Part shown: positions 1 to 50,450 of the stretch, piece by piece
How the letters are laid out: each line of letters begins with the position of its first letter
How positions within the stretch are numbered: position 1 is the first letter of the stretch
From: Magnetovibrio sp.
Lineage (GTDB): Bacteria > Pseudomonadota > Alphaproteobacteria > Rhodospirillales > Casp-alpha2
Length of the DNA stretch: 64,000 nucleotides
Reading direction: 5' to 3'
Assembly (NCBI GenBank): GCA_002722175.1
Contig: PBKU01000039.1
Span: 1-64,000, forward strand
Program-made: the position numbers and the translations under genes
Notes under the pieces: model-generated
What the model was told of the DNA's origin: nothing
The model's input: the letters and a program-made list of their open reading frames with translations, nothing else
Databases searched by the model: none

Positions 1-480
<480 letters not shown>

Positions 481-578
481 AGAGCCCCATGCATATGGAT
501 AAAATAGAAAATATCTACAAGAAAGATAAACAAGTGAATTTAGATTTTTGCGCTGTTTTGGCCGAAGCTTTATTTTGA

Positions 579-697
579 TGACCTGGTAGTTATGGCGGGG
601 GTGTCCCACCCGATCCCATCCCGAACTCGGCCGTAAAAACCCCCAGCGCCCATGGTACTGCGTCTTAAGGCGTGGGAGAGTAGGTCGCTGCCAGGTC
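579..697 (+). rRNA. rrf: 5S ribosomal RNA
   Basis: This is a complete 5S rRNA. The terminal stem is visible as ACCTGG at 581-586 pairing with CCAGGT at 691-696. The conserved CCCGAACTCGG segment lies in the middle, and GGGAGAGTAGGTCG lies near the 3' end. It follows 23S and precedes tRNA-fMet, the usual tail of an alphaproteobacterial rrn operon. The boundaries are good to about two bases. Confidence 0.96.
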
Positions 698-746: not shown

Positions 747-824
<78 letters not shown>

Positions 825-833
825 CATTACTTG

Positions 834-870
834 CACCCCCGGGTCTTTGGCCCGGGGGTGTTGGTTTTTG
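834..870 (+). terminator. Rho-independent terminator of the rrn operon
   Basis: A perfect 10-bp GC-rich stem (834-843 with 851-860) has a 7-base loop and is followed by a T-rich tract. It starts 11 bases after the tRNA-fMet CCA and should end the rRNA operon transcript. Confidence 0.9.
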
Positions 871-977: not shown

Positions 978-1370
978 TTAGTCCGATGCGAGTGTCTTGG
1001 CCGCCTCGTTCATCGCAAAGGCCGTCTGCTCCAAATCGTCATCGCTCAACGCCAACGAGGGGAAGATTTTGCCCGGTGACGTGAAGATTCCGCTTTTGCG
1101 CAACATGTCGTTGTAAAGGGCATTCTGTTTCGGATCTCGATGTTTTGCGCTTCGATAATCAAGGCAATTCGCATCGGTGAAAAACACGTCGAACAGAGTT
1201 GGGTCGCCGACGATTTGATGGGTAATTCCAGCGCTGGACAAAGTATCAGACTGGACTTTTTGCAACCGGCTTCCAAGATCGATCAATCTTTCGTAGGTTC
1301 CCTCGCGGCGCAAAATCTCCATGGTTTTCAGTCCCGCGGTGGCGGCGATGGGATTTCCCTGTCGCCCAAC
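978..1370 (-). pseudogene. C-terminal fragment of a class III (GSA-type) aminotransferase
   Basis: Read on the minus strand, this frame matches the C-terminal third of PLP-dependent class III aminotransferases of the glutamate-1-semialdehyde aminomutase type. It opens at GNPIAATAGL and continues into EILRREGTYERL. The open frame extends upstream to 1445, but those first ~25 residues look unrelated to the family. The large PLP domain, including its lysine, is absent. The fragment lies just inside the left edge of the putative island, so it is probably a relic cut by recombination. A functional short protein is unlikely. Confidence 0.75.
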
Positions 1371-1577
1371 TGCAAAATTCGTGTATTGCCAAATTAAGCA
1401 GATGCAGGGGAAATGGTCAGAGATGTAAAGCAACACACGATTCACAAACCAAATATTGCTGGAAGAAATTAGAATAATTTTCTATATTGTCAATATTATA
1501 AGAAATGCTAATCCTTGAGTTTAGAATGAGATACCCTCCTCAATTCCTCCTTTCGCAAATAACTCAGTGAACGTCAA

Positions 1578-5513: not shown

Positions 5514-5921
5514 ATGGTAGCAGTTAATCCCGGCAGCGTTTGGATCATGGGCCTTTCGGCTGCTGGCAAGTCGACCCTTTCCAGCCTGCTAGTCAACCGC
5601 CTGCGTGAAAACAGGTACCCCTGTATCTTGATTGATGGGGATCAGATCCGGTCGATCTTTCCCGAACGGCTCGGTTATGATCCCGAATCGCGTCGCAAGC
5701 AGACGCAGCGTGTTCGTGCCGTCGCGCAGTGGATTTCAAGTCAGGGCGTCCTGCCCATTGTCGCGATCATTCACCCATTCGAGGATGATCGCCGAGCCTG
5801 CCGCGAGTCCATTCACAATTACTTCGAAGTCTACCTGAAATGCCTCACGCCTACATGTTCAATATGGTTTTCTTCTGGATATGATTTTCCTTTTGGTAAA
5901 ATCCAACGGGTAGGGGTCTGA
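5514..5921 (+). pseudogene. Adenylylsulfate kinase, N-terminal fragment
   Basis: The first ~108 residues match APS kinase (CysC): a P-loop GLSAAGKST, the LIDGDQIR substrate-binding block, and the NYFEVYLKC strand. After that strand, at about base 5840, the frame loses all similarity and runs into unrelated sequence to a stop at 5921. The C-terminal third of the enzyme is missing. The ATG at 5514 is taken as the original start. Kinases of this kind appear in glycan loci, where they provide PAPS or phosphorylate sugars. The break is close to the right edge of the putative island. Confidence 0.72.
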
Positions 5922-6407
5922 GATGTTACAAATAATATCGCGATAATGTTTCCACGTGTTTCAAAGGGTATCACCCCTATCCTATGGGAGTTTATTTGAA
6001 GGCTCACGGTATAGATGATACACCTTAACCTTAACTAGGGCGATAATTAATTCTGTCACCCATATTTCACCCATCCCCCCCAATGTTCGCTTTCTAGAAT
6101 GCAGCGGACGCAGTATTTTTAGTTAAAACTTTTGTACGGTGCACCAAGGGGAACATGGAATGAATATTTCCGATAGGTAAAAGCGTTAATTTTCATTTTC
6201 GTAACCTGAAGGCCGTAGGTTAAATCCTACCCCCGCAACCAATCATCCGACTAAAAAGAGCCAAAACCCCATGAAAGCGCCCAGGTATTTAGGTCGTTTT
6301 TGTGAAGTTCCAGGTCAATTCTCATTGAAATGGCTCTATCTTTTTGGGAGGTAATTAGATATAAATGACCATGCGCTTTGGCAGCCGTCTTAAGGATATT
6401 TGAACTT
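5922..6407. other. Gene-free stretch holding the right island boundary
   Basis: No coding sequence could be supported here. It contains the tRNA-fMet 3' remnant (6202-6242) and, at its right end, the leader of the flavoprotein gene that starts at 6408. No further part of the broken APS kinase was recognised. Confidence 0.6.
6202..6242 (+). repeat. Right direct repeat: decayed copy of the tRNA-fMet 3' part
   Basis: Forty-one bases repeat the anticodon-loop-to-CCA part of tRNA-fMet (783-824), with one substitution and one missing base. No 5' half of a tRNA precedes it, so it cannot make a functional tRNA. This is the pattern left when an element integrates into a tRNA gene and restores it on one side only. 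Confidence 0.8.
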
Positions 6408-8843
6408 ATGCAGTCCCATGCGAAAGTAGCAGTGATTGGTGGTGGGGTTGTCGGGTGTAGCGTTCTCTATCACCTTACTAAGTTGGGTTGGCGGGATGTT
6501 ATCCTGATTGAACGTGATGAGCTTACATCAGGGTCGTCCTGGCATGCTGCTGGTGGGTTCCACAGATTAAATAGCGACCCAAACGTCGCAAAACTTCAGT
6601 CGTACACCATTGGTTTATATAAAGAAATAGAAGAGATCTCAGGGCAATCCTGTGGTTTGCATTTATCGGGAGGAGTTCTTCTGGCCGGGACCTCTGAGCG
6701 AATGGATTATCTCAAGGTGGAACACGCCAAGGGACGTCACCTGGGCATGGAAACCGAATTAATATCGGCAAATGAAGCAAGGGAAGTATTTCCTTTTATT
6801 GATCCGGCTCAATTCCAGGGTGCCTTGTTTGATCCGCTTGATGGGCACCTTGATCCTGCCGGAACGACACACGCTTATGCTAAAGCCGCTAGGGAAAATG
6901 GGGCGGAAATCTATTTGCGAAACCGCGTTGTTGAATTAGTAAAACGACCGACTATTGGTTGGGACGTTGTAACAGAGAAAGGAACAGTGCAGGTCGAGCA
7001 TGTTGTGAATGCCGGAGGGCTGTGGGCTCGAGAGGTGGGACATATGGTTGGCTTGGAATTACCGGTTCTTGCTATGGAACATATGTACCTCCTTACGGAA
7101 GATCTACCAGAAGTCGTATCATTTAATGAGGAAATGGGAAAAGAAGTATGTCATGCCATAGACTTTGAAGCTGAAATCTATATGCGGCAGGAACGTCGAG
7201 GAATGCTCATTGGAATTTATGAAAAGGCTTGTGTCCCCTGGTCCACTGAAACGACCCCGTGGGACTTTGGAAAGGAGCTTTTACAGCCTGATTTAGAGCG
7301 CGTTAGTGACTCGCTTGCTCTGGGGTTTAGGCATTGTCCAACTCTTCGAGATGCTGGGATAAGACAAATAATAAACGGTCCTTTTACATTTTCACCAGAT
7401 GGAAATCCCTTGATCGGCCCAGTACTAGGCACGCCTAATTTCTGGGTCGCATGTGGAGTCATGGCGGGTTTTAGCCAGGGTGGCGGAGTTGGGTTGGCAT
7501 TAGCTAATTGGATAGTTTTTGGAGAACCTGGGTTCGACGTTTGGGGAATGGACGTTTCACGTTTTGGTGACTGGGCTACGAAGTCTTATACTAATGCGAA
7601 AGTTCGTGAAAATTATGCTCGACGGTTTCAGATAACCTTTCCAAATGAAGAACTTTTAGCCGCACGTCCTTTAATGACTACTCCTATTTATTCTCTTCTA
7701 AAAGATAGTGGTGCTGTTTTCGGAGTATCTTACGGTTTGGAGCATCCTCTTTGGTTCGCCCCAAAAGGGGAGCCGGCTATCGAAGATGTTACGTTTAGGA
7801 GATCCAACGCGTTTAACCACATATCTTCTGAATGTTGTGCTGTTCGGAAAAGTGTAGGGATAAGTGAAATCTCGGGTTTTGCAAAATATATGGTTAGTGG
7901 AGAGCAGGCTCGCGACTGGATCAGTAAGGTTTTTGCAAATGATCCCCCCCCCCCTGGTCGAATAAAATTATCACCCTTGTTAAATCCTGATGGGAAAATA
8001 ATTGGGGATTTTACAATTTCTTCATTGGGGAAAGAGGAATACTACATATTTGGCTCAGGAGTTGCCGAAAATTACCACATGCGATGGTTCAATAAATGTC
8101 TTCCACCTGGGGAGGGGGCAAAAATAAAGGCTCTGGGTTTAAATCTGGTAGGGTTTTCCCTGGCCGGACCTAATTCAAGGAAATTACTGGACACTTTAAC
8201 TACGATCGAGATGTCAAATGAGCAATTCCCTCATATGAGTATTAGAAAAACAGATATCGGGATGATTCCCGTATTGATTGGAAGGATCAGTTTTACGGGT
8301 GAGCTTGGTTATGAGGTCTGGTGTGCTCCAGAATACCAGAATACTCTATTCGATTTGTTAATGAGGCAGGGAAAGGATCTTGGCATTAAGCTTTTTGGCT
8401 CCAGGGCTCTCCGTTCGCTTAGTCTAGAAAAAGGATATGGCACTTGGGCTTATGAGTATCGCCCAACGTTTAGCCCGATTGAAGCTGGGTTGGAAAAATT
8501 CGTAGCTTTTGATAAGGGAGACTTTATCGGTCGGGATGCATTAATCAAAGAAAGAGACAAAGGTACGGAAAAAAGGTTGGTGCTTTTGCGAGTTGATGCA
8601 GTAGATGCAGATGTTATTAATGATGAACCGATATGGCATAATAATCGGGTGGTAAGTTACGTAACATCTGGTGGATACGGCCATTTTATTAAACAGTCTC
8701 TGGCATTGTCTTATTTACCGATAGCTCTAGCAGATGATCCGTCTTTAAATGCGTTTGAGATAGAAATAATGGGTCATCGGTGCCCAGCAAAAATCCATTA
8801 CGAAATCCCATTTGATCCGAAAGGGGAACGGATGCGAAGCTAA
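6408..8843 (+). CDS. FAD-dependent oxidoreductase, dimethylglycine/sarcosine dehydrogenase family
   Basis: This is an 811-residue flavoprotein. The N-terminal DAO-type FAD domain shows VAVIGGGVVG at residues 7-16 and LTSGSSWHAAG near 43, the segment around the covalent flavin site in this family. The C-terminal half carries the FAO_M linker and aminomethyltransferase (GcvT) folate-binding domains, with FTGELGYEVW near residue 630. Family members oxidatively demethylate N-methyl amino acids and pass the one-carbon unit to tetrahydrofolate. The exact substrate is open. The ATG at 6408 was chosen over a TTG at 6378 because AAGGAT lies upstream. A run of 11 C (7944-7954) lies inside the gene. It starts just right of the island boundary. 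Confidence 0.85.
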   Translation: MQSHAKVAVIGGGVVGCSVLYHLTKLGWRDVILIERDELTSGSSWHAAGGFHRLNSDPNVAKLQSYTIGLYKEIEEISGQSCGLHLSGGVLLAGTSERMDYLKVEHAKGRHLGMETELISANEAREVFPFIDPAQFQGALFDPLDGHLDPAGTTHAYAKAARENGAEIYLRNRVVELVKRPTIGWDVVTEKGTVQVEHVVNAGGLWAREVGHMVGLELPVLAMEHMYLLTEDLPEVVSFNEEMGKEVCHAIDFEAEIYMRQERRGMLIGIYEKACVPWSTETTPWDFGKELLQPDLERVSDSLALGFRHCPTLRDAGIRQIINGPFTFSPDGNPLIGPVLGTPNFWVACGVMAGFSQGGGVGLALANWIVFGEPGFDVWGMDVSRFGDWATKSYTNAKVRENYARRFQITFPNEELLAARPLMTTPIYSLLKDSGAVFGVSYGLEHPLWFAPKGEPAIEDVTFRRSNAFNHISSECCAVRKSVGISEISGFAKYMVSGEQARDWISKVFANDPPPPGRIKLSPLLNPDGKIIGDFTISSLGKEEYYIFGSGVAENYHMRWFNKCLPPGEGAKIKALGLNLVGFSLAGPNSRKLLDTLTTIEMSNEQFPHMSIRKTDIGMIPVLIGRISFTGELGYEVWCAPEYQNTLFDLLMRQGKDLGIKLFGSRALRSLSLEKGYGTWAYEYRPTFSPIEAGLEKFVAFDKGDFIGRDALIKERDKGTEKRLVLLRVDAVDADVINDEPIWHNNRVVSYVTSGGYGHFIKQSLALSYLPIALADDPSLNAFEIEIMGHRCPAKIHYEIPFDPKGERMRS

Positions 8844-50373: not shown

Positions 50374-50450
50374 CTCCCAGTAGCTCAGTCGGATAGAGCG
50401 TTGGATTCCTAATCCAAAGGTCAGAGGTTCAAATCCTCTCTGGGAGGCCA
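50374..50450 (+). tRNA. tRNA-Arg (CCU)
   Basis: This 77-base tRNA has acceptor strands 50374-50380 (CTCCCAG) and 50440-50446 (CTGGGAG) fully paired, followed by discriminator G and an encoded CCA at 50448-50450. The anticodon stem is TTGGA/TCCAA around the loop TTCCTAA, giving anticodon CCT at 50408-50410. It reads AGG arginine codons. Both flanks were searched for repeats of its 3' part and none was seen. Confidence 0.96.

Follow-up and report, generated by a model that had tools for sequence, protein, structure and literature searches.

What has left a second, partial copy of the initiator tRNA gene some 5.4 kb downstream of the intact gene at the end of a ribosomal RNA operon? The stretch analysed here (64,000 nucleotides, hereafter the window) belongs to an 81-kb contig, C39, of a 2.79 Mb alphaproteobacterial genome (G000) that is assembled in 63 contigs and has an alpha-type tmRNA. 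It opens within the 23S rRNA, continues with the 5S rRNA and then reaches tRNA-fMet (Table 1). A preliminary description of this DNA had proposed that the partial copy marks an old integration boundary. Our analysis agrees: the repeat is very probably a distal attachment site, left by an integrative element that long ago entered the rRNA-linked tRNA-fMet and has since lost its integrase.

A displaced 3′ half of tRNA-fMet

Forty-six bases of the tRNA-fMet region (779-824) recur as 45 bases at 6198-6242; one base is deleted and three are substituted. The earlier count for 783-824 against 6202-6242, a single substitution and a single deletion, was exact (T794C and loss of C803), and the four bases upstream of these, from 779 and 6198 respectively, also belong to the repeat and add C779T and A782G. 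The earlier outline of the repeat, from the anticodon loop to just after CCA, is likewise accurate, as it begins at the first base of the loop (CTCATAA) and ends at CCA plus one A. Because a search of the whole genome returns the fragment at E = 5.8e-12, a chance match is excluded. ARAGORN calls no other tRNA here than the one at 747-823, and the fragment is not a full tRNA; with its anticodon changed from CAT to CGT and its T loop short by one base, it is not a functional one either. Elsewhere in the window, a tRNA-Arg (CCT) lies at 50374-50450, of which no fragment occurs elsewhere on the contig.

Since fMet genes come after rRNA operons, and related genomes hold two or three of them, the fragment might instead be the relic of another fMet gene, left as debris when a second rRNA operon was duplicated or lost. 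We consider this highly improbable: the homology ends exactly at the anticodon loop, at the same base as in relatives, no 5S or 23S sequence lies ahead of the fragment, the assembly holds a single 5S, and the fragments of relatives adjoin integrases (see below).

Table 1. Features of the tRNA-fMet locus and of the interval between the two copies (window coordinates).
Feature	Position	Strand	Basis
23S rRNA, end	1-485		Rfam RF02541
5S rRNA, end of the assembly's only rRNA operon	582-696	+	Rfam RF00001; single 5S in genome
Intact tRNA-fMet (CAT), probable regenerated target	747-823	+	ARAGORN; only full fMet in genome
Attachment core in intact gene, anticodon loop to CCA + A	779-824	+	Boundary common to relatives
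Strong intrinsic terminator after fMet	833-861	+	13-pair stem, -31.6 kcal/mol, z -4.1
hemL-like (glutamate-1-semialdehyde aminotransferase-like) C-terminal remnant	978-1445	-	TIGR00713 E 8.7e-17, covering only 297-421 of the 423 profile positions
SAM methyltransferase, 377 aa	1578-2711	+	PF13489 E 1.3e-12; similar to contig C17 gene
TIGR04372 glycosyltransferase, 436 aa	2914-4224	+	NCBIfam TIGR04372 E 3e-48
TIGR04372 glycosyltransferase, 402 aa	4221-5429	+	TIGR04372 E 8.6e-35; 38% protein identity to C17 paralogue
Adenylylsulfate kinase gene (apsK), 3′ third missing	5514-5921	+	PF01583 E 4.6e-25
Non-coding stretch; in relatives, integrase and attachment arm	5843-6197	.	No integrase trace
Displaced, decayed tRNA-fMet 3′ half (probable distal attachment site, attR)	6198-6242	+	Genome search, alignment
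DAO/GCV_T flavoprotein, first gene past island	6408-8843	+	PF01266, PF01571

Contents of the interval and the missing integrase

The genes between the copies had been described as foreign-looking, a view that stands with a caveat, namely that the cargo resembles a cluster in the genome itself. On contig C17, an intact apsK, a TIGR04372 gene and a methyltransferase form part of a colinear sulfation/glycan cluster; the homology of the window apsK to the intact copy stops near 5842, with 78% nucleotide identity over 318 bases. The base composition of the island (GC 0.488, vs 0.422 for the rest of the window) is by itself weak evidence of foreign origin because the native-looking C17 stretch is also high (0.519). 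The attachment scar could be real and its glycan genes nonetheless be those of the host's own cluster, or derived from it, as the colinear paralogues would suggest. We think this unlikely, as identity to the C17 genes is only 29-43% for the methyltransferase and 38% for the glycosyltransferase, which is too distant for a recent internal copy. Being colinear with diverged C17 genes, the cargo has instead the look of one portion of a surface-polysaccharide cluster with a divergent origin. The C17 cluster (C17:24000-42000) includes two apsK genes, one of them reversed, and sulfate adenylyltransferase-like and asparagine synthetase-like genes beside TIGR04372. Past the island, the flavoprotein gene contains a run of C at 7943-7955, a possible slippage site.

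That no integrase is left was noted from the outset, and profile and sequence comparisons bear this out. Pfam and NCBIfam profiles detect neither integrase nor excisionase in the 5.4 kb, the integrases of 11 relatives give no significant tblastn match in the window, and the stretch at 5843-6197 yields no integrase remnant by tblastn and no nucleotide match. The arm-type repeats formed by pairs of GTCAAC, present beside fMet in several relatives, were not found near either end of the island, and the two occurrences of TCACCCAT just before the fragment are within chance. Having lost its integrase, the island would be expected to stay in place unless helped in trans.

fMet 3′ halves across the order

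Whether similar islands occupy other fMet sites had been suggested as a check, and they do. We searched 297 genomes of the same order with the pattern HCTCATAACCTGAAGGTC, which demands any base but G before CTCATAACCTGAAGGTC and cannot match intact fMet genes. Displaced halves were found in 60 of the 297 genomes (47 of the 210 good ones); reversing the pattern gave zero matches in the same set. Thirty of the pattern loci were read, none of which held a full tRNA. Where the inner flank was 1.5 kb or longer (25 loci), a tyrosine integrase lay on that side of the fragment in 19 cases, 16 of these 19 in one fixed orientation with the gene start near the fragment, and the same integrase profile had no match in 1.53 Mb of control loci, a comparison in which the independent evidence is confined to core positions 18-46 and the flanks, given that the pattern fixes core bases 1-17. 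BLAST matches in 41 related genomes are free of this 17-base bias; they include many partial fMet matches, most with the identical start base.

The integrases of the relatives carry Arm-DNA-bind_3 and Phage_integrase domains and begin some 40-260 bases inward from the distal core. Thirteen fragments, read by hand in ten genomes (G006, G038, G040, G053, G085, G093, G104, G155, G176 and G203, with two each in G053, G104 and G155), lie within 100 kb of an intact fMet on the same contig, and all are on its 3′ side and on the same strand, 10-98 kb off. The pair in the window has the same order and orientation, with a spacing of 5.4 kb. The proposed integration boundary thus draws its support from most relatives, in which the same half with the same boundary adjoins an Arm-DNA-bind_3/Phage_integrase gene 3′ of an intact fMet. 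The exceptions are a few fragments without an integrase or without a close intact fMet, including one in G251 with no intact copy nearby. Four loci (L179, L188, L191 and L193) have pairs of GTCAACAC-like repeats some 80 bases 3′ of the intact fMet; these have the appearance of integrase arm sites at loci that are occupied.

The same half is carried outside cellular genomes. With the same start, it is present in 113 IMG/VR contigs, all but two of them (111) without a full tRNA, and a related integrase lies within about 3 kb in 59 of the 113. One such integrase has no more than distant relatives among the named phages of INPHARED (at best 38%), and in the plasmid set alphaproteobacterial replicons match at up to 59%. 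The preliminary description had considered the initiator tRNA unusual as a target, which these data contradict, as displaced halves occur in some 20% of the genomes of the order and in at least 111 viral contigs. It seems reasonably likely that, throughout the order, fMet at rRNA operon ends serves alphaproteobacterial elements and temperate phages as an integration hot spot, used by a dedicated integrase family, that leaves old scars and may also seed secondary sites.

A second scar in the same genome

The idea of secondary sites comes from two places, on contig C12 of G000 and contig C16 of G008, where a 3′ end of fMet and an element-like flank lie together beside core genes. In the former (C12:7203-7317) the final 25 bases of fMet are followed by a flank, together 79% identical to the rRNA-linked fMet and its flank in G008, and the scar adjoins a core gene region with fabH, ihfA-like and merR-like genes and a tRNA-Pro. 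This type of flank was found only in G000 and G008 among the 41 relatives. Two other identities for the C12 stretch were rejected: C12:7203-7227 is not part of a tRNA-Pro island, since its 25 bases match fMet and not the nearby tRNA-Pro, nor is it a tmRNA, as that of the genome is at C14:164448 and Rfam finds none at C12.

In G008 the flank of the intact fMet is homologous to that of a second, decayed fragment on C16; the shared stretch is 454 bases long and its start falls exactly on the first base of the anticodon loop. This decayed 3′ half with its 400-base flank (C16:4507-4957) follows pst/phoU/phoB-like genes and is possibly an integration at a secondary site. A further partial copy is present at C16:17623. 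The flank shared by C12 and G008 is perhaps an arm belonging to one type of element, or else a displaced native flank; either reading implies further events at fMet.

Such events raise the question of whether the 5.4 kb entered next to an older island. Under tandem accretion it would be a second element inserted before the older one, whose left end would be the sequence past 6242; on that reading, too, the fragment is an attachment site, yet its neighbour would originally have been something other than the flavoprotein gene. Two fragments on one contig in G104, a right flank (6243-6420) unlike any fMet flank compared, and the resemblance of the C12 flank to the fMet flank of G008 all speak for such a history, which we hold possible though rather doubtful, considering that the rest of the 81-kb contig has no other fMet fragment and that GC to the right of the island equals that of the remainder of the window. 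What weighs against an old element at fMet, besides the missing integrase and the exceptions above, is that no empty site was found: 80 loci homologous to the flavoprotein gene (at most 65% identical) and the family members that have an intact fMet share no neighbour, and in none of the relatives compared does the flavoprotein gene adjoin fMet.

A proposed history of the locus

Because relatives show the same architecture and viral contigs carry the same half, we read the regenerated tRNA, cargo and displaced fragment of the window as the usual hallmark of an island that targets a tRNA gene. On the preferred reading of an old element at fMet, a tyrosine recombinase of the Arm-DNA-bind_3/Phage_integrase type, its gene now gone, would have exchanged strands in the anticodon loop, as the repeat boundary suggests. 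The element's own fMet 3′ half would have rebuilt a working tRNA at 747-823, with the original half displaced to 6198-6242. The 5′ half of the present gene would then be that of the host and its 3′ half, from 779, that of the element, which probably also brought the terminator behind it. Released from selection, the displaced half would have acquired its three substitutions and one deletion, and later deletions would have taken the integrase, the 3′ third of apsK and most of the hemL-like gene, so that 5.4 kb remain, holding part of a surface-glycan/sulfation gene set. It is toward the expected integrase end that the truncated apsK points, which is consistent with one deletion having removed both. 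Which side is the host's, the order of the deletions and the loss of mobility we infer.

Comparison with known systems

The principle behind Islander is that a tRNA gene is split by integration and rebuilt by the element, the far end being marked by a displaced fragment; tRNA plus displaced fragment is the signature, and anticodon-centred crossovers are reported in 2083 islands (PMC4383910). Like those islands, the window has an intact tRNA, cargo and a 3′ fragment downstream, with a probable crossover in the anticodon loop (class A). The full gene and the fragment of the same gene lie on one replicon, the fragment reaches the tRNA 3′ end in the same orientation, and it sits between 5921 and 6408, outside conserved coding domains; the 5.4 kb is within the Islander size range of 2-200 kb. 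Unlike those islands, the interval is without an integrase, so that the Islander filter would reject it, and the fragment has four mutations. Given the missing integrase, the locus is a degenerate remnant and not a mappable active island.

In kind it is ordinary, a routine decayed tRNA-site island. What is worth keeping is the likely order-wide hot spot, with displaced halves in about one-fifth of the genomes, most of them adjoining one integrase type. The rRNA-linked fMet is therefore a useful landmark for islands and prophages that are split by automatic tools or go unnoticed, since assemblies break at the rRNA operons there; the integrase requirement of island finders also conceals old scars like the one at 6198-6242.

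The closest counterparts are the fMet-site islands and prophage-like elements of the same order (in G005, G006, G007, G009, G017, G024 and others), whose attachment core and boundary are identical. In contrast to the window, they retain an integrase of about 390-440 aa at the distal site, and most are larger (10-98 kb). Farther afield, a Sinorhizobium meliloti survey names tRNA genes 010, 030 (Asn) and 039 (Lys) as hot spots (PMC11476347). The ICEs and IMEs of Mesorhizobium (IntM; PMC9973854, PMC8627217) are similar in being alphaproteobacterial, in using a tyrosine recombinase and in integrating beside a methionine tRNA, whereas they differ from the window island in being conjugative, in reaching up to hundreds of kb and in having their integrase present.
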